Source of the DNA: Undaria pinnatifida
Taxonomy: Eukaryota; Sar; Phaeophyceae; Laminariales; Alariaceae
Direction: 5' to 3'
Assembly (NCBI GenBank): GCA_012845835.1
Contig: JABAKD010000009.1
Span: 7,343,413-7,407,412, forward strand
Length of the DNA stretch: 64,000 bases
The position numbers and the translations under genes are program-made. This document shows, piece after piece, positions 4,440 to 33,904 of this stretch. The notes under the pieces are model-generated. The model saw only the letters and a list, made by a program, of their open reading frames with translations. It was not told the origin of the DNA and made no database searches. Numbering within the stretch: position 1 is the stretch's first letter; the number at the start of each line of letters is the position of its first letter.

Positions 4440-5650
4440 TGAAGACATCGTAAGACCCGTGGAAGCCCACGGGAGCACACCGGAGACCGAGGGACGTCTA
4501 TGGGAGATCCATCGGAGCCCATGGACGCCCATGGGAGACCCATGGACGCCCACGGACGCCCACGGACGCCCACGGGAGGCCATGGTAGCCCATGGGAGAC
4601 CCATGGGAGACCCATGGGAGACCCATGGGAGATCCATGGGAGACCCATGGACACCAGCCGGTACCCACGGTAGTCCCATGGGCGTTCGTCGGAGACCATG
4701 GGAGCCCATGTGGGCGTCCCGTGGGCGTCCACGGGCGTCCATGGGTCTCTCGTGGGCATCCATGGGCGCCCATGTCCATGGGTTTCTCGTGGGCATCCAT
4801 GGGCGCCCATGGCTCTCCCGTGTGCGCCCATGAGCGACCATTGTTTTCCCGTGGGCGCCAATGAGTGTTTCTTGGCCGTCCATTGGCGTCCCGTGGGCGT
4901 TTACGGGCGTCCTTTGGTCTGCCCTGGGCGTCCAAGATTCTCTCGTGGGCTCTTTAGGGATGTCCATGGGTCTCTCGTGGGCGTCCATGGGCGACCAAGG
5001 GTTGCCCGTGGGCATCCGCATGCGTCGATGGGCGTCCGTGGGCCTCCCGAGGGCGTTCACGGGCGTCCATGGGTCTCCCGTGGGCTCCCGTTGGTCTCCC
5101 TTGGGCATCCATCAGTCTCTGGTGGGCGTCCATGGGCATCCGTGTGTCTCCCATGGGTCTTCCATGGGTCTCCCATGGGTCTCCCATGGGTCTTCCATGG
5201 GTCTCCCATGGGTCTCCCATGGGTCTCCCATGGGTCTCCCATGGGTCTCCCATGGGTCTTCCATGGGTCTCCCATGGGTCTCCCATGGGTCTCCCATGGG
5301 TCTCCCATGGGTCTCCCATGGGCTCCGATGGTCGTCCACGAGTCTCACGTGGGTTCCCATGAGCGCGTGAGAGACCCATGGGTGCCCCATGGGACGCCCA
5401 TAGAAGCTCACGGGACCCATGGACGCCAATTGACGCCCTCGAGAGACCTGTGGCAGACCCACAAAAGCCCGTGAGAAATTCATGGGCGCCCATTGGAGAT
5501 CCATGGACGCCCACGAGAGACTCATGGACGCCCGTGGATGCCCACGGGATGCCCACGGGAGATCCATGGGCACCCCATGGGAGACACATGGACGCCCATG
5601 GACGCCCATGGACGCCCATGGATGCCCACGGGAAACCCATGGGCCATCTC
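4440..5650. repeat. 11-bp-period minisatellite (core CCCATGGGTCT)
   Basis: The core (about 5140-5330) is a near-perfect tandem array of an 11-bp unit, CCCATGGGTCT, with occasional TTCC variants. The flanks are degenerate relatives that switch orientation (gggagacccatg against catgggtctccc) and mix in a catggacgccca variant. Because 11 is not a multiple of 3 and neither strand of the unit creates a stop, all six frames stay open and encode rotations of one 11-residue peptide (MGLPWVSHGSP or its reverse-strand counterpart). The many overlapping open frames here are therefore artefacts of the repeat. Confidence 0.9.
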
Positions 5651-8649: not shown

Positions 8650-9560
8650 TGGCGTTTTCGCGGATATCCGCGGCAGTGCCCGTGGCAAGCCGCGGCGTGC
8701 GACGGCTTGCCACGGTCAATGCCGCGCCAACCCGCGACATGCCACGGCAACCGACGGCGACGCCCGCGGCTAGCCACGGCATGCCGCGTCCTGCCCCGAT
8801 ATGACGCGGAAACCGTGGGAGTCCGCTCGCCGCGGGTTGCCGTGGCATGTCGCGGGTTGCCGCGACATGCCGCGGAAATCCGCGGGAATCCGCGTCAGTG
8901 TCCGTGGCAATCCACGACACTATTTTCCACGGCCTGCCACGGCAATGCCCACGGCAAGCGCCACGGCGGCACTCACGACCGTGTCCACGGCAGGCTACGG
9001 CAGTACCCACGGCTATGTCCACGGCTATGTCCATGGCAATGTTTGCGGCAATGTCTGCTACATTCTCCACCGCAATGTCCACGGCAATGTCCACGAGAAT
9101 ATTCACGGTATCGTCCACGGCTGTGTCCATGGCAATGCCCGCGGCGATGTCCGCGGTTATTCCGCGGCATTGCCCCACCGCAATAGCTTCGGTCGTGTCC
9201 ATGGCAACATACACGGCCATATCCACGGCCATATCTACGACAATGCCCGCAGCAACGTCCGCGACAATGTCCACGGACAATGTTCGCGACACGGTTCCAC
9301 GGGCAATGTCCGCGGCAAGGTCCGCGGCAGTGTTCACGGTAAGGTTCTTGCGGTAAGGTCCACGGCAATGCCCATAGTGATGTCCGCGGCAATGGTCCAC
9401 GGCAATGTCCGTGGCAAAGTCCGCTGACGTGTCCGCGGTAATGTCCGCTGCAAAGTTCACGGCAAGGATATGTCCACGGACATGCCTGCGTCAATTTTCA
9501 TGGCAATGTCCACGGCATGTCCACGGACATGTCCGCGGCAACGCCCGCGGCGATGCGCCC
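8650..9560. repeat. 12-bp-period minisatellite (unit GGCAATGTCCAC and variants)
   Basis: A degenerate tandem array in which units such as GGCAATGTCCAC and GGCATGTCCACG recur with C/G substitutions. The 12-bp period keeps any frame in register, so translations are four-residue repeats (GNVH, AMST, QCPR on the plus strand; similar on the minus). The left third (8650-8900) is more diverged and of slightly different unit type. The long open frames over this interval reflect the repeat, not a gene. Confidence 0.9.
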
Positions 9561-14639: not shown

Positions 14640-15480
14640 AGCGTGCGATGTTGGCAATTATTTGCCCTTCTAGTTCTGTTAAGGAATGTTGGTGGCGGAA
14701 AACTCGTGACGAATCCCCGTGTCTAGACAGTACTTCTCAAACTACCCTGCCGTGTACTCCCCCCCCGGTCCGTGCGAAGACGTCCGACCCGCAGGCCCCG
14801 GAGAATGACCACGGTCTGTACGAACTGTTGGAGTGTGCTTACTGCATCACCCTGCTCTTTGATGAGAAATACCTTCTTCCATTTGCTGTGCTGATCCGTG
14901 AATATGCTGACGTAACGAAATTCTCCGAGTTCAGGTGGGGATAAATCCCCGAGAAGATCGGTGTAAACCAGTTGGAAAGGCCGATCGGTAGTGTGCGTAG
15001 TTGTCTTGGGATGGTGCAATTGCTTTCTTTTCCCAAACGCGCACACGTCACTGGCGATCTGTTATCACTGTAGATGATGCCGTTGTCGCCGTTGTCGCCG
15101 TTGTCGCGCAGAATCCTCAAACTTTGGGAGTTAATGTGTCCCACTCGTCTGTGCCAAATGTCAGCCGGTACCCGTATCGCTGAGAGGGCCACCTCATCAC
15201 TGGTAGCTTCAGCAATCTCGAGGTCAAAGGAGAGAAGCTCTTGGTTCATGTTCAGCTGTTGCAGTGGCTGGACGTGCTGATTTCGTTTCAGACACGGATG
15301 AGAGTCGATGATGGTAATTATCCCGGTCTTTGCTGCTTGCGATGTTGAGAAGAGGCGATGCTCCAACCCAGGCACAATCAAGCCTTCAAGGTTCAGCTAA
15401 TGCTCGTTGCTTACCATGTCGACGGTTTTCCCGGAAACCATACCGGTGGCCGTTCGTAGTAGAATGCGCCGTCCCGCGGT
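14640..15480 (-). pseudogene. copia GAG-pre-integrase and integrase remnant
   Basis: Minus-strand frames give VPGLEHRLFSTSQAAKTGII, then WHRRVGHINSQSLRIL (the WH.R.GH zinc-binding start of the GAG-pre-integrase domain), then FGKRKQLHHPK and PFQLVYTDLLGDLSP with the first catalytic Asp, FRYVSIFTDQHSKWK, and RLRTDRGG near the second catalytic Asp. The reading changes frame between the two blocks (overlap near 14839-15046). The expected third acidic residue was not found. The upstream side stops abruptly at 15480, where the nested gypsy LTR begins. Confidence 0.85.
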
Positions 15481-15995
15481 TGTGAAGGTGTCGTGGTACC
15501 GGAAGGTGGGAGGGAAAGGACGCAGGGGTATCAGCTTCGCTTGGAGACAGCACCGGTTCTTCTTTATAGATTTCTCATTATTGGCGTTGAGCTATGAGAA
15601 GCTCGAGGAGACAGGAAAGTAGAAGGAGGAGAAAGAGGAGAAGAAGGAGGAGGAGTGAGAGCACGGGGGTGGCGTGAAGCTCACAGAGTTCGGTTCACCC
15701 CAGCATTGCTGCTGTGCTCTCTTCCGGACCTTTACTTATGGAACGTACAAGGAACGTTCTCCCAGATGTTCTATATTCCCATGAGCGCCTAACGTGCTTA
15801 CTTCTATCTATCTTGTCCAGAGGAAGAACGTTCGGTTACCGAGAACGCTCTTGTGGTATAAGCTAGCTAGATTCTACGGGTCATCCACTCCACTTAGAAT
15901 ATTCCGCTCATGAGAATTTTCTTGTGGCCAATAGACCATGACTCTGCGGACTATCTTACCGAATATATTGCCAGATATACTGACACTCTATTACA
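15481..15995 (-). mobile_element. Ty3/gypsy LTR (minus strand), same family as the 19.9-29.5 kb element
   Basis: The interval is the reverse complement of the 491-bp LTR at 19878-20368. Its minus-strand start is TGTAATAGAGTGTCAG at 15995 and its end is CACCTTCACA at 15481 (against CTCCTTTACA in the young LTR). It is clearly more diverged, with length differences (515 bp) concentrated around 15615-15665. It is followed (toward 16165) by the purine-tract sequence and about 170 bp of the internal 3' end, so it is the 3' LTR end of an otherwise missing element inserted in the copia protease region. Confidence 0.9.
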
Positions 15996-16165
15996 TTAGC
16001 CCACCCTGAATAGTCGTAGATGCAGATCACTTGCGCATCAAAGGATGTCAACAAAACATCCAAAATTGGAAAGGGGATCGAAGATGCGGCTATTCGAAAC
16101 AAACAAAAATGAGGCTATAGATTCCCCCACACCTCGTAATAATGAGGCTTGAACGCCTCAATGCA
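15996..16165 (-). mobile_element. internal 3' end of the nested gypsy copy
   Basis: Reverse complement similarity to about 28845-28994: the tagcccaccctgaatagtcg stretch equals the purine tract and its neighbour before the young 3' LTR, and gaggctatagattccccca equals the sequence near 28860. The similarity fades between 16140 and 16190, so the outer boundary is approximate. No second LTR is present, so the element was truncated or deleted. Confidence 0.8.
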
Positions 16166-17950: not shown

Positions 17951-18175
17951 CAGCTGTGAAATCGAAGATTTTGTCGAAACTCATCTTTGCAAGCTGTGTG
18001 TGATACTCCGATCGCGCGTATTGCTTGGTATGTGTCCTCATTAAGGATATAGGTCGGCGACTCCCCTTGAAACTACAACAGTGTAGCTTGTACCAGGGTC
18101 AACAGAGTGATGTTAGTCAGTCTGTGCGCGGAAACTATAAAACCCGTTTTTGAGGGGGACAAAATCTGACAGCTG
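17951..18175 (+). mobile_element. MITE-like family C, copy C1
   Basis: Bounded by CAGCTGTGAAATCGAAG on the left and the mirror of CAGCTGTCAGATTTTGTC on the right; both ends share CAGCTGT and a following AGAT-type core, giving short terminal inverted repeats. The internal signature includes gatactccgatcgcgcg, ggtcggcgactcc and gtgcgcggaaactat. This is the most frequent repeat family in the window. Confidence 0.75.
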
Positions 18176-19390: not shown

Positions 19391-19877
19391 AGTAAGTGTC
19401 ACGAATCGTGTCCTAGGCAGTGAGGTCTGGAGTCAGGGTGAGACAGGCGAGGATATTCACGGCGAAGCGGACGACGATATCTAGCTCGTACTAGCATCGC
19501 AATGTCCACATATATGGGCTATATCTGTAGCACGCCTCAGGTATTCATAATGACTGACCTCCGAAGGACCGATACGACCGAGTTCAGAAGGCGCTTGTGC
19601 GTTCCTCGGAGAGAGAGAGCAAGTTCCCTGTGCAGGTGGTGAAGATGGGAAGCCTCCCGAGAAAGTAGTGTATAAATGGTAACTTGATTGCTTATCCGAA
19701 GGGTTTATGAACGCGAACCCAAGGAATTAATAGGTGGTTTGGTTGAAGATTGGTTGTAGTGTCCGGGTGGGGCAGCCACACCCGACTTGGGGAGGGGACG
19801 TAAATATCGCGGCCCCTACTATCACGAAAACGCCTCTGTCATAGCAACTCTTGGAATTGTCACAGAACCGTACCATC

Positions 19878-20368
19878 TGTAATAGAGTGTCGGTATAGCG
19901 GGCAATAGATTCGGTAAGATAGTCCGCAGAGTAACGGTCTATTGGCCACAAGAAGATTCCCTTAGAACGGAATATTCTTAGTGAAGCGGATAACCCGTAG
20001 AGAATAGCTAGCTTATACCACAAGAACGTTCTCGGTAATGGAGCGTCCTCCTCTGGACAAGATAGGTAGAAGTAAGCGCGTTAAGCGCTCTTGGGAATAT
20101 AGCACACCTAGGAGAACGTTCCTTGTACGTTCCATAGGTAAAGGTCCAGAAGAGAGCACAGCAGCAATGCTGGAGGGTGAAGCGAACTCTGTGAGCCTCA
20201 CCCCACCCCCATGCTCTCACTCCTTCCCCTTTCCTGTCTCCTTCGAGCTTCTCATAGCTCAACGCCAGTAATAAGAAATCATCAAAGAAGAACCGGTGCT
20301 GTCTCCAAGCGAAGCTGATACCCCTGCGTCCCTTCCCTCCCAACATCCGGCACCACGACTCCTTTACA
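19878..20368 (+). repeat. 5' LTR of the gypsy element (491 bp)
   Basis: Starts TGTAATAGAGTG and ends CTCCTTTACA. Equivalent to the 3' LTR except for about two small differences, and to the diverged minus-strand LTR at 15481-15995. The element's promoter and polyadenylation signals should be in here but I cannot place them. Confidence 0.95.
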
Positions 20369-20371
20369 ATC

Positions 20372-20389
20372 TGGCGTCGTCGGCAGGAC
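20372..20389 (+). promoter_or_regulatory. putative primer-binding site
   Basis: TGGCGTCGTCGGCAGGAC begins three bases after the LTR end. TGG complements the CCA end of a tRNA, the normal primer for minus-strand synthesis. I cannot name the tRNA. Confidence 0.55.
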
Positions 20390-23300
20390 GTGCGCCCTTT
20401 TAGTGGCAACGTTGGGCCCGCGAATGACGGTTTCCCACTCGCTGCCACGGTGTTGACAGCACCACTGTCCCTGAGCTCGAGGGACAGCCCCGTCGTACAG
20501 ATGGAAGACTCGCGATCACAGTCGACCAGGACATGCTCTGAGCACCCTGCCCCGTCATCCTCGCCGGCTTCACGCATTGCGTGGACTCGGGCCACAGGAT
20601 CTGCATGCCCTAGCGAGTACAGCCCTGCTCTCCAAACGCCTGAAGACAGGACCTCTCAGGGTATCCCCGCCCAGCGTGCGCGCCACCGCGTGGACCCTCC
20701 CGGTACCTCGGCTTTGCCGAGCAATTCCCCCGCGAACTCGGGCGTCCAAGTCAGCACCGCCCGATCGGACCTGACTCTACCCCCGACAACGCCACACGGC
20801 AACATTACCAACAATCGCCGACACCCACCCCTGCAACACCCTTCCGACGACTCGCCCTCGCCAGCACATGACACCGCGGACACCCCGGATTCTTTCCATT
20901 TTTTCTGGAACTCCTCGTCCGTCTTCTCACAGTGGTACCTGTGCGACATCGAGTACGAAAGCGTCACGTACAACTGCGCCGAACAGATGATGATGGCGCA
21001 GAAGGCTGCGCTCTTCGGTGACACCGCGACAGAGCTCCTCATCCGAACCACCCCCGATCCCGCCGACCAAAAATCTCTTGGACGCACCGTGTCCGGCTTC
21101 GACCAGGAGTGTTGGGAGCGACACCGTTACGACATCGTCCTCAACACCAACTTCTGCAAGTTCAGCCAAAACCCGGACCTACAACAAGCGCTCGAGGCAA
21201 CTGGCGAGAAGCACATCGCTGAGGCCAGCCCGTACGACCTCATCTGGGGCATCGGCTATAGGGCCGACCACCCGTTTGCCTGCGAAAGGGCGCGCTGGCG
21301 CGGTCGGAACCTGCTAGGCCGGGTACTTATGGACGTCCGCGAACGCCTTCGTTCAAGCCTCCACGCCACAAGCGCCCTCGCCCCCTGCTCCGCTGAGCCA
21401 ACACCCACCACCACCGACGCCAGCCGGGTCTTCCCCACCGCAGATGGCATCCACGAGACAAGCCCCCCCCCCCTTCGACAAACGCCGAGTACCCCGCTTG
21501 GACTCCTTCTGCCACCCTCCACCCCGGACGCCTTGCCCAGCAGCCACTTCGCTCAGGTCTCCGCCGTCGACGGCGCAACCAACCTATACCCCGCTACTAC
21601 CGCGCCGACGATACCAGAACATGGACCGTGCCTTACAAGCGGCATCCTAACTGTCGACGACGCGTCGTTCACGACCGAAGTTCTAGTCCACAGCGGCCCT
21701 ACCGCCGCCAAACGCTGCAAACTCGTGGCGCTGCTTGACACAGGCTCCCCCCAGTCGTTCATCACCGCCGCCGCCGTGGAACAACTGAAGGCGTCCCGGT
21801 CAGCAACGGATGAGTGCGAGCGACAGAACTCACCTCGTTCATGGGAAGGTTTCGGAACCTCGACTCCCCTCTCCACCACCGTTTCCATCCGCTCAAGCAT
21901 CCAGTTTAAGCACCACCAAACCCCCACCGCCGCCCTGGCAGTATGGGCTTGCGTCGTTCCTGCAGGAACTATGCAGCATCCCATCCTCTTGGGGCGAGAT
22001 AGCTGGATGCGCTTCGAGCGACGCTCGTATACCACGCTCCCGCGACAGCCCCAGCTGCCACACCAGCCCCCCCAACCGACCCTGGGCGAACTTTCCCTGC
22101 GCCACCACGACACCAACAGGGCCTCCGCCTTCATTCCCGACGACCGATACACCGAAGACGTCTACCACCTCCGGTTCACCGGCACGAAAGTTATTTCGCT
22201 TTCCCCCTCGCCGAAGCTCATCAAGGTCAACCTCGTGCGCCAGTCAGGCGCCCCGGCGTTTACCGGGCAGTACATGGTCAACATGCTCCCCCGCGAGGAC
22301 CTTCTCACCGACAAGGAAATTTTCGTCTCCGACGGACACCAGACTATCCCATTGTCAGGATCAACCGATCTCGAACCGGGCGACCTCCTCGGAACCTCCC
22401 TCTCCCCACTGGTGCAAGTACCACTAGCCACCCTTGGGCACCCTTCTTTGGACCCCCCAGCCCCTCCACCTATGCCAGGCGCACATGCCCTACACGACAA
22501 CATCCCTGTGGCCAGCGAGAACCCCCCACCAGCCAATCCCCACGACCCACCGACAGCCCCGTGCCCACAGCTCCTTGCACGCCTCGACACCGATCAACAA
22601 ACTAGCTTCCTCAACCTCTGGGACCGTCTGCCGCCGCATCTGCGCGACATCATCTTCGACCTCCACGGTTCCGGATGGTCCCCATCGGTGATCGACAGCC
22701 TGGGAGATGTCCTCTGCGAGTTTCCGGACGTCTTCTCCACCTCCAAGACCGACTTCGGCTCGTGCTCATTGATGCCGTTCAAGATCACCGTACCTCCGGA
22801 CAGCGAACCAGTTACCTCCCGCCCGTACAGGATCAACCCCATCCTTGCCAAAAAGGCCGACGCCGTCCTCGACCAGTACCTGGCCGCCGGCTTGATTCAG
22901 CATTCGACCTCACCTTACTCCAGCCCCATGGTCGCCATCCCGAAGAAGGACGGCGGTGTCCGCATCACCATCAACTATAAGAAGCTGAACGCCATCAGCT
23001 CCCTCGGACAGCTTCCCATCCCCCGCGTTGACGAGGTCCTCGATTCTTTAAGAAAAGGGCGCATCTTCTCCCTCTTCGACTTGGTCGCCTCGTTCCACCA
23101 AATCACCATCGACAAGGATACCATCCCTTTGACGGCGTTTTGCACGCCAGACCGGCTCTTCGAGTGGCTTGTGATGCCGCAAGGAAGCAGTGCCTCCCCC
23201 GGTTGGTTCGTTAAGGTTATTAACGAGGTCATCAAAGGCTTGGAACGCGTCGCCGCGTACCTCGACGACATCATCGTCTTCGACCCCGACCCCACCGACC

Positions 23301-23914
23301 ACGTCGCCAACATCCGAGCCCTTTTTGGTCGCCTCCGTAAGCACCGCCTCAAACTTTCTCCCTCCAAGGCCAAAATTGGCGCCACAACCGCCGACTTCCT
23401 AGGGCACACCATCTCCGCTGGCGGCTACAGCCCCAACTCCGAAAAGGTCGCCGCCCTCACCAAAATGCCCATGCCCACCGACACGAAACAGGTGCGGTCA
23501 CTCCTCGGAGGTATCAACTACTACGGCAAGTTCCTACCAAACCTTTCCAGACGCCTTCGCCCCATCAACGCTCTACTCAAGCAGGGCACCACCTTCGACT
23601 TCACCCCCGCCATGGAAGCCACCATCCGCGCCATCCTCCACGAACTTACCGAGCCACCGATCCTCGTCGACCCCGACTGGGACGCCGTCGCCGACGACTC
23701 CCGCCCTTTCCGCCTCTACTGCGACGCTAGCATCGACGGCTTTGGAGCGACTCTCGAGCAGGAACAACTTGACGGCTCCGTCCGCCCGATAATCTACATC
23801 AGCCGCGCCACTCTGGACTCCGAACGTTCATGGACACCCCTCGACCTCGAGGCCGGCAGCATCGTTTGGGCGATCAAGCGACTACGCGGGCATCTGTGGT
23901 CCACCCGTTTCTAA
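20390..23914 (+). CDS. gypsy polyprotein part 1: NADAR, protease, RT, RNase H start
   Basis: 1174 residues from a GTG at 20390. The frame is also open upstream into the LTR; the first in-frame ATG is 20501. Residues 1-165 are Pro/Ser/Thr-rich. Residues about 169-320 form a full NADAR (YbiA/DUF1768) domain: FSQWY, CAEQMMMAQKA with Glu198, KSLGR, KFSQN, YDLIWGIG with Asp283 and Trp286, and RNLLGRVLMDVR. Family members hydrolyse N-glycosidic bonds in riboflavin intermediates or ADP-ribosylated bases. A Pro-rich linker follows; the aspartic protease site DTGS is at 450-453; RT spans about 800-1060 with the catalytic Asp897 and YLDD at 957-960; RNase H starts at Asp1112 (LYCDASIDGFGA). No Gag or CCHC knuckle is visible. 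The frame ends at TAA 23912-23914 inside RNase H. Confidence 0.92.
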   Translation: MRPFSGNVGPANDGFPLAATVLTAPLSLSSRDSPVVQMEDSRSQSTRTCSEHPAPSSSPASRIAWTRATGSACPSEYSPALQTPEDRTSQGIPAQRARHRVDPPGTSALPSNSPANSGVQVSTARSDLTLPPTTPHGNITNNRRHPPLQHPSDDSPSPAHDTADTPDSFHFFWNSSSVFSQWYLCDIEYESVTYNCAEQMMMAQKAALFGDTATELLIRTTPDPADQKSLGRTVSGFDQECWERHRYDIVLNTNFCKFSQNPDLQQALEATGEKHIAEASPYDLIWGIGYRADHPFACERARWRGRNLLGRVLMDVRERLRSSLHATSALAPCSAEPTPTTTDASRVFPTADGIHETSPPPLRQTPSTPLGLLLPPSTPDALPSSHFAQVSAVDGATNLYPATTAPTIPEHGPCLTSGILTVDDASFTTEVLVHSGPTAAKRCKLVALLDTGSPQSFITAAAVEQLKASRSATDECERQNSPRSWEGFGTSTPLSTTVSIRSSIQFKHHQTPTAALAVWACVVPAGTMQHPILLGRDSWMRFERRSYTTLPRQPQLPHQPPQPTLGELSLRHHDTNRASAFIPDDRYTEDVYHLRFTGTKVISLSPSPKLIKVNLVRQSGAPAFTGQYMVNMLPREDLLTDKEIFVSDGHQTIPLSGSTDLEPGDLLGTSLSPLVQVPLATLGHPSLDPPAPPPMPGAHALHDNIPVASENPPPANPHDPPTAPCPQLLARLDTDQQTSFLNLWDRLPPHLRDIIFDLHGSGWSPSVIDSLGDVLCEFPDVFSTSKTDFGSCSLMPFKITVPPDSEPVTSRPYRINPILAKKADAVLDQYLAAGLIQHSTSPYSSPMVAIPKKDGGVRITINYKKLNAISSLGQLPIPRVDEVLDSLRKGRIFSLFDLVASFHQITIDKDTIPLTAFCTPDRLFEWLVMPQGSSASPGWFVKVINEVIKGLERVAAYLDDIIVFDPDPTDHVANIRALFGRLRKHRLKLSPSKAKIGATTADFLGHTISAGGYSPNSEKVAALTKMPMPTDTKQVRSLLGGINYYGKFLPNLSRRLRPINALLKQGTTFDFTPAMEATIRAILHELTEPPILVDPDWDAVADDSRPFRLYCDASIDGFGATLEQEQLDGSVRPIIYISRATLDSERSWTPLDLEAGSIVWAIKRLRGHLWSTRF

Positions 23915-24928
23915 ATTTATTCGGACCACAAGGCGCTCGAGAACATCGCCAAGGTTGGTGAGCACAACGCTCGCGTCCGGCGCTGGCTCGAGTTCCTTTC
24001 GGCTTACAACTACACACTGAAGTACCGCAAAGGTACGGCCAACGGCAACGCCGATTTCCTTTCACGCCTACCACAACCAGCCACCGACGCCGACCGCACC
24101 GGACGCAACCGCCTCACTGGCCCGGACACTGTTGGCATCTACCTCATCCGCCCCTGCGGCTTCGCGCCGAACGAGCCGCCTACACCGGGTATCGGCTTGG
24201 GTGGGCTCGTGTCCCCCCCTTCAAGACCCATTCTAACAATCCAGCCTCTTCCCTTCACCGCCGACGACTATACCGACTTCTGCCTACTGGGACCACGCAT
24301 GGAGCACCACGGCATCCCCAACAACTTCGTCGGGCCTATTTCGACCCGCGACTCCACCGCCAGGCCGCTCGTCAGCTCCGAGAATGCCGCCGTGAACACC
24401 GGCGCTCCTCCTGGTTCGGCTTCCAGGCCACCCGTCGTCTCCCCGCTGTCCACCATTGGCGCCACGGAACCACCGCCTTCTGGTCTGATCTCTTCACGGA
24501 CCCGCCATCGCGCCGCCGCCGCCGCGGGAAACCCCCGACCTACCGCAGACTATGGGTTCGGACGCCGTCCGAAACCAACCGTATCCAAAAGATCTACATC
24601 TACCCGTCGACCGCACACGCCCCCGGCCGGGGCCCAACCAAGGCTTCCCCCGACGACAACGCCTCCAGCTTCCGTCCCCATGCCGCCCGCGTCACCCGCA
24701 CCAACCGCACCAAGACCGGCCCCTCCTTCGAGGACTTCTCCGACGTCCCGATCAACACCGCCACTTCTGCTCCCGGATCCTGTTGTCGACCTAAACATCG
24801 ACCCCCACCTCCTCGCCCGCGTTGAGCGCTACACCTACAGAGACTGGGCGCGCGAACAACGCGCAGAGCCCGTGCTACGCCGCCATCCGCTTCCTATCGT
24901 TGGACTCCCCTTCTCCGCCGCCGGCTGA
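23915..24928 (+). pseudogene. gypsy polyprotein continuation: RNase H end and linker (same frame, after a stop)
   Basis: Directly after the TAA the same frame resumes with IYSDHKALENIAKVG, ARVRRWLEFLSAYNYTLKYR and GNADFLSRLP, the standard RNase H C-terminal blocks (SDH.AL, RW...L..Y, N..AD.LSR). The stop is thus a single interruption of one reading frame, explicable by one base change. After the RNase H end (about 24075) comes a Pro/Ser/Thr-rich linker. The frame ends at 24928, but homology passes to another frame at about 24855-24885 (shift equivalent to +1). It is translatable only by readthrough, or dead. Confidence 0.85.
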
Positions 24929-27059
24929 CCTCTTGGATTCCATCCCCTCCGCCCAGCGCCCGCTACTCTCCGACGTCCTCGCACTTGCCGCCAAAGGCAG
25001 ACTCCACCGCGCTGACGACGAAACAGCCCTCCTGATCCAACGTCCACCCACATCTCAACCCGGGAACAGCCTATCGCCACCCGCACCCTATCCCCCCCGC
25101 GTCTACGTTCCAATGCTGATGCGCCCCTGGGTGCTGAACACATGCCACGCCGACACCTCCCTACACCTTGGAGTTACCCGGACGGTTCGCATGCTGGCAC
25201 GGTTTTACTGGTGGATCGGCATGGACGTCTCCGCCCGCTGGTGGATCCGCCGCTGCCTTCACTGCCAGGCGCGCAAGACCTCCCGACACACCATTCGCTG
25301 GCCGACCCTCTCCCTTCCTTTACCCAACGGCCCTGGCATCACCGTCAGCGTCGACTACTTCGGGCCCCTACCTCTCACACCGCGCGGGAACGTACACATC
25401 CTTTTATTTACCGACCGCTTCAGCCGCCGGGCCGACATGTTCGCTGTATCGGCAGAGAACTTCACGGCCGCCGGAACTGCCGACATCCTGCTCAACGAGT
25501 ACATTCCTCTCTGGGGGTGCCCGGTGGCGCTCCTCTCCGACAATGGTCAACAATTCACCTCCAAGCTGGCAACCATCGTCTACGACCGCGTCGGCATCCG
25601 CAAGGTCAACACCAGCGCCTATCACCCCTGCACCAACGGCGGCGTCGAGCGGGTCAACCATGTACTGGCCCAGATGCTCTCCATGGTTGGCAACGAGAAG
25701 CAAACCGACTGGGACGTACTACTGCCGCACGTGTCGGCGGCCTACAACAACTCTGTCAACGCCGCCACCGGACTGGCGCTCAACGAGATCCACATCGGCC
25801 GCCTACCACGCCTCCCGCTCTCGGTCTTCGAACCCGAAAACATCGGCGGTCACCAGAGCTTGGATCGCGACCACCTAGTCTACATCAACCTTGCCACCGA
25901 CCGGCAACAACGCGCCTACTCCCTCGTCCGAGAGCTCCACCGACTTACCGTCTCGCGTCTACAACGCCGCAACGCGCCCATCATGGCCGCCCTCCTCGCC
26001 TCCCCCCCTTTCTCCGTTGGCGGCTGGGCCTGGGTCTACAACTCCGCCTCCACTATCCGCCAGGGTGCCAAGAAGGGCACCGACGCAACCGTTTTGAAGA
26101 CGAAACTCTCGTTGAACTGGAACGGGCCTTTCAAGATCCTCGCGGTGGGCCCGACTGCAGCCTCCGACACCCCCGACAACCGGCCGCTACAAGACAAGCT
26201 GCTTTTCCTCGATCTACCTTCAGACTTTCCGGGACGGGACTCCAAACCACGCGTCTCCGTCAAACGGTGCAAGCCCTGCCACAACCCCGACGACACCAGC
26301 GACATACCCAAGCACCTACCAGCGGACCTCACAACATACGTCCTCACAGCTTCCGCTGCCAAGTCCCCCCCCTACCACGTCACCCTCGACGACGTCACAC
26401 CACCACCGGAGCGCCTTGAGGTTGAGCAGATCACCGGCCACCAACTCGTACGCGGCCGCGGCGGAGTCATCGCCGTCCTATACGAGACCCACTGGACCGG
26501 ACTCCTCAGCTCCTCGTGGGAACGCGAGCTCGACCTCCAACACTTCAGGCGCCATATTATACTCTACTGGTCCGGGAAGCCGACACAACACCGTCAGACC
26601 AACCGCCTCTACCGCCAGATGCGCATCGGCGCCGCACACCGCGAGCTCTCCCGATCTCAAGGCCAACTCTTCCTCGCCCCCGGCTACACCCTGGTCCCCC
26701 GCGACCTTTGGCTTCGCAATTTCAGAAACTCCACCCTCCCCTCCGGGGCACACGTTTGGTACAAGGCACGTGACGGCCTCTGGTGGCTAGGCAAGATCGC
26801 TCACCGCGCGCCACCGGACGCCTCTTCGCGAACCCCCCCGGACCCTCCCCCGGGTAGTTCCTACATCATCAGGTTCCTAGACGACCCCGGCCCGATCAAG
26901 ATCGACCTCCAGCCAGCTCGCTACACTACCGCCCGGAACGCCGTCTCCGGATCGTGGTGTCTTCAACGCCATGGGCATGGGAGCCTATCCCGTGGGGTGC
27001 TACGGAATTCTGATGCTTCCCGCGGTGCCCCTACCGTTCCAACTCCCCCCATTGGTTAG
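24822..27059 (+). CDS. gypsy integrase, chromodomain and Tudor-like C-terminus
   Basis: 745 codons in a frame entered by a shift from the previous one; there is no ATG at its start, so it is not an independent gene. The zinc-binding HHCC is His109, His115, Cys145, Cys148 (HX5H, CX2C). The catalytic core has Asp178 (SVDYFGPLP), Asp240 (LSDNGQQF) and Glu276 (GGVERVNH), with exactly 35 residues between the last two. Residues about 528-585 form a chromodomain-like unit: LEVEQITGHQLVRGRGG, then HWTGLLSSSWERELDL and ILYWSG. Residues about 643-702 (VWYKARDGLWWLGKIAHR, then YIIRFLDDPG and LQPARYTT) resemble a Tudor-type barrel. Chromodomains in this position steer integration toward histone-marked chromatin. 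All catalytic residues are intact. Confidence 0.92.
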   Translation: MSATPTETGRANNAQSPCYAAIRFLSLDSPSPPPADLLDSIPSAQRPLLSDVLALAAKGRLHRADDETALLIQRPPTSQPGNSLSPPAPYPPRVYVPMLMRPWVLNTCHADTSLHLGVTRTVRMLARFYWWIGMDVSARWWIRRCLHCQARKTSRHTIRWPTLSLPLPNGPGITVSVDYFGPLPLTPRGNVHILLFTDRFSRRADMFAVSAENFTAAGTADILLNEYIPLWGCPVALLSDNGQQFTSKLATIVYDRVGIRKVNTSAYHPCTNGGVERVNHVLAQMLSMVGNEKQTDWDVLLPHVSAAYNNSVNAATGLALNEIHIGRLPRLPLSVFEPENIGGHQSLDRDHLVYINLATDRQQRAYSLVRELHRLTVSRLQRRNAPIMAALLASPPFSVGGWAWVYNSASTIRQGAKKGTDATVLKTKLSLNWNGPFKILAVGPTAASDTPDNRPLQDKLLFLDLPSDFPGRDSKPRVSVKRCKPCHNPDDTSDIPKHLPADLTTYVLTASAAKSPPYHVTLDDVTPPPERLEVEQITGHQLVRGRGGVIAVLYETHWTGLLSSSWERELDLQHFRRHIILYWSGKPTQHRQTNRLYRQMRIGAAHRELSRSQGQLFLAPGYTLVPRDLWLRNFRNSTLPSGAHVWYKARDGLWWLGKIAHRAPPDASSRTPPDPPPGSSYIIRFLDDPGPIKIDLQPARYTTARNAVSGSWCLQRHGHGSLSRGVLRNSDASRGAPTVPTPPIG

Positions 27060-28994: not shown

Positions 28995-29486
28995 TGTAAT
29001 AGAGTGTCGGTATAGCGGGCAATAGATTCGGTAAGATAGTCCGCAGAGTAACGGTCTATTGGCCACAAGAAGATTCCCTTAGAACGGAATATTCTTAGTG
29101 AAGCGGATAACCCGTAGAGAATAGCTAGCTTATACCACAAGAACGTTCTCGGTAATGGAGCGTCCTCCTCTGGACAAGATAGGTAGAAGTAAGCGCGTTA
29201 AGCGCTCTTGGGAATATAGCACACCTAGGAGAACGTTCCTTGTACGTTCCATAGGTAAAGGTCCAGAAGAGAGCACAGCAGCAATGCTGGAGGGTGAAGC
29301 GAACTCTGTGAGCCTCACCCCACCCCCATGCTCTCACTCCTGTCCCCTTTCCTGTCTCCTTCGAGCTTCTCATAGCTCAACGCCAGTAATGAGAAATCAT
29401 CAAAGAAGAACCGGTGCTGTCTCCAAGCGAAGCTGATACCCCTGCGTCCCTTCCCTCCCAACATCCGGCACCACGACTCCTTTACA
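28995..29486 (+). repeat. 3' LTR of the gypsy element (492 bp)
   Basis: Starts TGTAATAGAGTG and ends CTCCTTTACA; about two differences from the 5' LTR. Followed by CATC, matching the bases before the 5' LTR. Confidence 0.95.
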
Positions 29487-29490
29487 CATC

Positions 29491-33687: not shown

Positions 33688-33904
33688 CAGCTGTGAGATC
33701 GAAGATTTCGTCGAAACTCGGCAAGCTGTGTGTGATACTCCGATCGCGCGCATTACGAGTTGTGTGTCCTCATTGAGGATATAGGTCGGCGACTCCCCTT
33801 ACAACTACAGTGTAGCTATCAGGGTCAACAGGGTGATTTTAGTCAGTCTGTGCGCGGAAACTATAAAAAAAAAACGTTTCTGAGGGGGACAAAATCTGAC
33901 AGCT
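33688..33904 (+). mobile_element. MITE-like family C, copy C3
   Basis: CAGCTGTGAGATCGAAG at the left to aaaatctgacagct at the right, with the same internal blocks as C1. Confidence 0.75.

Follow-up and report, generated by a model that had tools for sequence, protein, structure and literature searches.

NADAR at the N terminus of Pol in a Ty3/gypsy retrotransposon lineage of brown algae, and a Gag-less deletion copy from Undaria pinnatifida

A YbiA-family NADAR domain has been described at the N terminus of Pol throughout one Gypsy lineage of Ectocarpus, for example in Gypsy-12_Ec32 (PMC12477816, Genome Biol, 29 Sep 2025). We report a related long terminal repeat (LTR) retrotransposon carrying NADAR in a 64,000-nucleotide stretch of Undaria pinnatifida contig JABAKD010000009.1 (the window). 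NADAR also occurs in a retrotransposon protein in the Tx1 long interspersed nuclear element of Crassostrea gigas, although this is a non-LTR element with the domain in ORF1 and not in Pol (PMC12477816), and in the RNA viruses of the Roniviridae, where it sits on an RNA-based replicator, as here, but without reverse transcription (PMC11287256). Among the papers listed by our literature searches, judged by titles, abstract openings and selected passages, none besides PMC12477816 reported NADAR in a retrotransposon. The NADAR-Gypsy fusion has been known since 2025 and is not new; an initial sequence-only reading of the window had left open whether it had been reported. We add copies from another genome, the anatomy of the Gag-TGA-Pol junction, tests of conservation and an account of what the copy in the window is.

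NADAR proteins hydrolyse ADP-ribosyl-guanine in DNA (PMC11543638, PMC11125620) and act on DNA and RNA carrying ADP-ribosylated guanosine (PMC11543638, PMC11833690); among the hydrolase families tested, NADAR alone reversed guanosine-base ADP-ribosylation of RNA (PMC11833690). The positions involved in ADP-ribose binding or hydrolysis have been defined on the NADAR of P. nicotianae; the counterpart of its K50 is essential in the E. coli C7 NADAR, and rescue in cells depends on the counterpart of its E43 (PMC11543638). What eukaryotic NADARs do has been described as unclear (PMC11125620). The DarT1-NADAR toxin-antitoxin systems share the domain superfamily with the NADAR of the window, which has the YbiA-type glutamate whereas the DarT1-linked (BC4488) subfamily has an aspartate.

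We first established what the window contains. Its NADAR domain is full length, in agreement with the sequence-only reading: PF08719 matched along its whole profile (positions 1 to 163 of 163, E value = 4.2e-49, 167.4 bits versus a cut-off of 35.1), and NCBIfam TIGR02464 matched the same open frame above its cut-off (E value = 4.7e-42). When the NADAR region was scanned alone, the E values were 1.8e-50 (Pfam) and 1.8e-43 (TIGR02464), and every diagnostic motif block quoted in that reading was present. The frame (20258-23914, 1218 amino acids from stop to stop) is open and holds NADAR, reverse transcriptase (RT) and RNase H. The reading had also placed a protease in this frame; NADAR and RT were confirmed there, and the putative protease was identified by motif and position only, through a DTGS-type motif, which we take to be a protease signature. 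The Pfam scan of the frame gave no significant protease match, and in the sister protein P0122 Asp_protease_2 matched below threshold (E value = 0.027). The two LTRs, rightly described as nearly identical, are 99.6% identical (one mismatch and one 1-nucleotide indel), and CATC stands on both flanks of the element (19874-19877 and 29487-29490). LTRs, a target duplication, and RT and RNase H ahead of integrase, together with the motif-based protease, place the element in Ty3/gypsy; Gag upstream of Pol is missing from this copy.

The copy is broken by one stop and one frame change (Table 1), damage that the sequence-only reading did not mention. The RNase H tail after the stop matched PF17917 under the cut-off (E value = 0.0042), and the integrase is carried by a second frame (24795-27059), where the core matched PF00665 at 32.2 bits versus a cut-off of 32.6. 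The probable chromodomain scored 19.1 bits with PF00385, under the cut-off of 25.1. With two frame lesions and the loss of Gag, the copy is without a working Gag-Pol. The element shares with the Ectocarpus NADAR-Gypsy lineage both NADAR at the N terminus of Pol and a probable C-terminal chromodomain (under the Pfam cut-off), whereas the copy in the window comes from another genome, is Gag-less and is broken; Gypsy-12 is likened to it by description, not by sequence. Membership in a NADAR-carrying Ty3/gypsy lineage of brown algae is the best explanation of the element.

Next, we looked at how widely NADAR occurs in the same genome, using searches that covered 511,146,479 bases in 68 contigs. 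There were 152 NADAR matches, 150 of them listed, and this number is a lower bound because 150 of 1449 candidates were scored. Most were either window-type (about 80% or more identical, frames of up to 2371 amino acids) or type B (about 48% identical, frames of up to 2473 amino acids), and some were intermediate. Among the best 87 of the 150 listed RT matches, 66 had a listed NADAR 0.3 to 4 kb upstream on the same strand, and this held for 22/22 whose open frame runs to 2200 amino acids or more, 26/27 at 1900 or more and 43/52 at 1400 or more. With at least 152 matches in the genome, the domain is not peculiar to this copy, and chance capture or an assembly chimera in one copy is ruled out. 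No sister element with an ordinary Gag in the place of NADAR was found among the 10 longest-frame members of the 21 RT matches that have no listed NADAR upstream. In four NADAR-less window-type copies (L129, L130, L131 and L133), which are internal deletions, NADAR is gone and element sequence picks up again directly behind the LTR; a fifth, L132, matches only from about 110 nucleotides upstream of RT. The type-B copies L134 to L138, the first of which contains 401 N, match only from points inside the NADAR-RT interval, the sequence farther upstream lying outside the comparison.

We also searched protein databases with the RT region of the window. This search returned 420 proteins at an E value of 0.001, of which 120 were listed, and 95 of these were at least 44% identical in RT-RNase H. 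Among those of the 95 that carry NADAR or reach far enough upstream, 35 of 40 carry it, a generous fraction because the criterion admits every NADAR carrier. Ectocarpus sp. CCAP 1310/34 is the named source of 23 of the 120, some with both NADAR and RT; Ectocarpus-named matches with at least 84% cover were 50 to 72% identical to the RT region of the window, and the two closest listed relatives (86% over the RT region) do not bear that name. The fragment P0012 has NADAR followed by the protease region and is identical to the window at 79/149 NADAR, 53/89 protease-region and 32/76 linker positions. The proteins without a full NADAR include P0133 (different upstream sequence and a partial protease), P0139 (a gene model merged with a Helitron-type protein), P0162 (NADAR cut) and P0191 (upstream apparently out of frame). 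P0170, also without NADAR, branches close to the lineage's base in the RT tree with modest support and possibly represents the state before NADAR capture.

To place the active site, we mapped the NADAR of the window onto PDB entry 8bau, which we take to be the NADAR of P. nicotianae. The window frame has E242, K249, R276, E322, D327 and W330; E242 and K249 correspond to the helical-core residues E43 and K50, and E322 aligns with E125 as a glutamate, not Asp or His. In our reading of the alignment, E322/E125 would be the C-terminal charged residue meant in PMC11125620, and the domain is assigned by its sequence to the YbiA subfamily. It shares domain family and main active-site residues with the P. 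nicotianae NADAR and with E. coli YbiA (2b3w), but differs from the former in having Phe at the Y84 position and Gln at the D86 position, and from NADAR/YbiA proteins generally in being embedded in a retrotransposon polyprotein. The listed relatives (P0010 to P0120, minus P0012 and P0018) were 41 to 53% identical to it. A phage search matched 706 records, each below 60% identity (10 rows inspected), and long proteins queried with the NADAR region yielded 614 candidates, none at an E value of 0.001. Two NADAR proteins, P0044 (306 amino acids, with PF11672) and P0026 (344 amino acids), have extra C-terminal parts and may be other fusions of the family.

We then asked whether the domain is conserved across 30 element NADARs including that of the window (those of at least 115 amino acids among 36). 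Of the residues defined on P. nicotianae, K50, R79, W89 and D130 were present in 30/30, K75 and W133 in 29/30, E125 in 28/29 and E43 in 23 of the 24 rows with a residue there. Averaged over every NADAR column, the most frequent residue had a share of 0.72. In the 15 rows that contain every part, pairwise identity averaged 0.642 for NADAR, 0.644 for protease, 0.712 for RT and 0.424 for the linker, and across all rows holding a given part, mean identity to the window was 0.48, 0.52, 0.64 and 0.21, respectively. NADAR and RT distances were correlated (r = 0.91 in 23 rows; none of 2000 permutations reached this value). We also pooled the ratio of nonsynonymous to synonymous polymorphism (pN/pS) over stop-free copies from the same genome. 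For type B it was 0.43 in NADAR (n = 13), 0.46 in protease (13), 0.18 in RT (12) and 0.25 in RNase H (12). For the window type it was 0.44 in NADAR (n = 24), 0.57 in the linker (16), 0.27 in protease (18), 0.36 in RT (18) and 0.63 in RNase H (17), and because the last value shows the ratio to be noisy and post-insertion neutral change is included, these figures give moderate support for constraint. The near-invariant active site, the co-divergence with RT and the 22/22 long frames indicate, as the sequence-only reading had supposed, that NADAR has been maintained by selection in the lineage.

The position of NADAR relative to Gag became clear from full-length copies. A same-genome LTR search that scored 40 of 1237 candidates gave two window-type copies with LTRs 15,287 bases apart and a third with a spacing of 15,047, all with about 6.7 kb from 5' LTR to NADAR, and a fourth with a spacing of 12,175 and about 3.6 kb. 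One full-length window-type copy, C22, was read in sequence (stretches L147 and L139). Behind its LTR end and primer-binding site (PBS) come a leader and a Gag frame whose knuckle reads CLNCNGTDHSMKTC; a TGA follows and then, in the same phase, the NADAR-Pol frame. Type B has the same plan, with a Gag frame of 1019 amino acids (stop to stop) containing CLNCHEDTHSLRNC, a TGA and same-phase Pol (L140 and L145); in L146 and L141 the upstream frames are shorter (856 and 414 amino acids) and the TGA is identical. From this one window-type copy and the type-B copies, the full-length order is LTR, PBS, leader, Gag with zinc knuckle, TGA, then disordered N terminus, NADAR, protease, RT, RNase H, integrase and probable chromodomain, and LTR. 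The Gag ahead of the TGA ends like ...GTFRT(G)N in L140, L145 and L139. Window-type and type-B Gag share 41% of 394 aligned positions, and the Ectocarpus-named P0136 has a stretch 31% identical to Gag (217 positions) ahead of its NADAR. Type-B Gag matched no Pfam family, and its five PDB matches (best E value = 0.011) were judged to be chance. Since Gag and Pol lie in one frame split by TGA in two families whose Gags are 41% identical, the junction is a candidate for stop-codon readthrough.

Against C22, the copy in the window lacks about 6.2 kb, Gag included, as read from BLAST coordinates and sequences. Its match with L147 ends at 20390 and that with L139 begins at 20384, and the 7 bases common to both form the junction; microhomology was measured for this copy. 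The sequence-only reading had put NADAR at the Gag position, and this has to be revised: the window holds a deletion derivative, and NADAR belongs to the N-terminal part of a Pol that follows Gag. NADAR as a Gag replacement is ruled out, and so, by the Gag of C22, is a window-type family that is Gag-less as a whole. The junctions of the NADAR-less copies L129, L130 and L133 likewise start in the PBS, their deletions running from there to the linker or RT, and that of L131 starts inside the LTR. PBS-starting deletions are a route to Gag-less copies and apparently a recurrent reverse-transcription error in the window-type family. These deletions, L131 included, probably arose by template jumps during reverse transcription, the copy in the window by a jump from the PBS into pol.

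What NADAR does for these elements can be put forward as a sequence of steps. TGA readthrough would yield a low level of NADAR within Gag-Pol, the protease would free it, and it would travel in the particle with the RNA and RT. There, as an ADP-ribosyl-guanine hydrolase, it could strip ADP-ribose from guanines of element RNA or single-stranded complementary DNA (cDNA), where such marks, if left in place, would stall reverse transcription. NADAR would in this way be a nucleic-acid-hygiene module of Pol. Some retroviruses carry in Pol a dUTPase, an accessory enzyme of nucleic-acid hygiene; the two enzymes are unrelated, and the parallel is an analogy only. We give clearance of ADP-ribosyl-guanine from element RNA or cDNA by a readthrough-made, protease-freed NADAR roughly even chances, the argument being largely inferential.

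Several observations weigh against this proposal. The ADP-ribose contact Y84 is F in 30/30 element NADARs, the contact D86 is variable, and at the R93 position 16 have R, 13 have C and 1 has K. The closest equivalog, TIGR02464, is named riboflavin biosynthesis intermediates N-glycosidase and was matched at 143.8 bits versus a cut-off of 73.7. The window-type pN/pS of NADAR lies only moderately under that of the linker and RNase H lies above both, and the choice of stop-free copies biases the ratio low. Furthermore, TGA readthrough is deduced from the frame alone, and guanine ADP-ribosylation in the host is presumed. The putative marks may be damage, regulation or host defence. Many retrotransposons, some with near-identical LTRs, retain most of the active site and offer a natural test case: the retention predicts that element RNA or cDNA encounters ADP-ribosylated guanine.

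The host-defence reading is a special case of this proposal, with which its odds overlap. NADAR would then undo ADP-ribosylation with which the host, a rival element or a virus marks retroelement nucleic acid as a defence, a possibility we regard as rather unlikely. NADARs are antitoxins, the domain is retained throughout the lineage, and NF053876, a family named anti-phage, matched in part and far under its cut-off (40.6 versus 240 bits). A Pfam scan of three window frames found no DarT ADP-ribosyltransferase domain.

Alternatively, NADAR might retain a YbiA-type activity on small molecules (riboflavin-pathway intermediates or other NAD-derived metabolites) that aids the element or its host metabolically. 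The TIGR02464 match and the 41 to 53% identity of the listed relatives would fit such an activity, but the Gag-Pol fusion puts NADAR beside the nucleic acid of the element, and NADARs of several subfamilies act on guanosine-ADP-ribose DNA and RNA (PMC11543638, PMC11833690, PMC11125620), so that the family name leaves the substrate unsettled; we consider a metabolic role unlikely. We find it harder still to credit that NADAR is a non-enzymatic module for binding (ADP-ribose, RNA or chromatin) or for spacing in the polyprotein. The probable chromodomain suggests an element that collects readers, and the R93 and D86 contacts are kept only partly, yet K50, E43 and the glutamate aligned with the catalytic one are among the most conserved residues. 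That NADAR is a passenger, captured by chance and now drifting, is very improbable. NADAR-less deletion copies and the nesting of P0133 and P0139 among carriers speak for it. Against it speak main active-site residues that hardly vary, a pN/pS of less than 1, the divergence of NADAR in step with RT and the 22/22 long frames; moreover, 4/5 of the examined window-type copies without NADAR are internal deletions, and in three of these the deletion begins in the PBS.

We also evaluated whether the lineage acquired NADAR once or more than once. In the RT tree the window falls inside a clade with Ectocarpus NADAR-RT proteins (support 100/100; the Gypsy-12_Ec32 sequence itself is not in the tree), and P0133 and P0139, which lack NADAR, are nested among carriers. 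Three NADAR trees, whose other rows were assumed to be free of element fragments, separated the window-type NADARs from the main clade of elements. In the tree with 57 other rows, 12 main-lineage element NADARs formed a clade (97/95) whose neighbours were Planctomycetota, Myxococcota and a Chrysoparadoxa protein. The window-type NADARs (the window, P0001, P0003, P0007 and P0012) sat elsewhere, unsupported as a clade (49/0) and with the non-element P0013 among them. A single NADAR clade was rejected with 20 element rows and with 30 other rows that came only from the window's own search (approximately unbiased test, P value = 0.0158), and was not rejected with 17 element rows, 23 of those 30 and 34 of 80 bacterial loci (P value = 0.167). 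The NADAR of the window was 0.47 to 0.48 identical to type B at an RT identity of 0.80 to 0.81, as compared with 0.60 at an RT identity of 0.74 for type B and P0131, a low value that faster evolution accounts for as well as NADAR replacement does. The window lineage may therefore have swapped its NADAR, with faster change as the plain alternative. That this Gypsy lineage took up NADAR more than once at the same Pol site, which would leave the window NADAR ungrouped with those of its RT sisters, seems unlikely to us. If it were true, repeated uptake together with the conserved active site would mean that retrotransposons have recruited a guanine de-ADP-ribosylase again and again, and retroelement nucleic acid in brown algae would be under standing pressure from ADP-ribosylation. 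Around residue 806 of the window frame, identity per 50 residues to the type-B copies L111 and L117 steps from 0.24-0.67 upstream of this point to 0.64-0.86 beyond it. The step suggests that the families recombined upstream of RT or that their rates differ greatly.

The features of the element are collected in Table 1. Primer-binding sites conventionally begin with TGG, as the candidate site does.

Table 1. Features of the NADAR-carrying element, in window coordinates
Feature	Position	Strand	Basis
5' LTR (TGTAA...TTACA)	19878-20368	+	alignment with 3' LTR
Candidate PBS, TGG... right behind the LTR	20372-20389	+	sequence
7-nucleotide microhomology at the deletion junction, PBS joined to N-terminal Pol	20384-20390	+	comparison with L147/L139
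Ser/Pro/Thr-rich N-terminal Pol remnant, first ATG at 20501	20501-20899	+	no Pfam match
NADAR domain, probable YbiA subfamily (residues 215-365 of the frame)	20900-21352	+	PF08719, TIGR02464, 8bau residue map
NADAR-protease linker, weakly conserved	21353-21622	+	alignment of relatives
Putative retropepsin-like protease region, LLDTGSPQSFI	21623-22027	+	motif; homologous region of P0012 and P0122
Reverse transcriptase	22937-23413	+	PF00078, E = 1.1e-27
RNase H, interrupted by the stop at 23912-23914, resuming in the same frame beyond	23603-23911	+	PF17919/PF17917
In-frame TAA within the RNase H region	23912-23914	+	sequence
Zone of open-frame switch (23915-24928 frame to 24795-27059 frame)	24795-24928	+	sequence
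Integrase, H2C2 zinc-binding domain and core	25107-25628	+	PF17921, E = 3.6e-14; PF00665, E = 1.4e-07
Probable chromodomain, integrase C terminus	26418-26561	+	PF00385, E = 0.0012 on the isolated piece
3' LTR	28995-29486	+	alignment with 5' LTR

Behind the chromodomain, positions 26745-26885 could encode a second small SH3-like barrel (PWWP, E value = 0.15, non-significant), possibly a second chromatin reader, and 24 positions of the C-terminal part (26331-27056) are invariant across 11 aligned sequences. Scans for tRNAs, Rfam families and viral contigs gave nothing informative for the element. On the minus strand, 4 kb off, 15480-16139 holds an LTR and the 3' internal end of a related element in the opposite orientation, about 84% identical to the NADAR-carrying element. 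Repeat copies at 17989-18142 and 33721-33868, some 15.7 kb apart and 90 to 94% identical in pieces, flank the element, and at 4456-5361 and 8926-9555 there are long tandem arrays (units of 11 to 31 and 12 to 24 nucleotides) that read as repetitive open frames.

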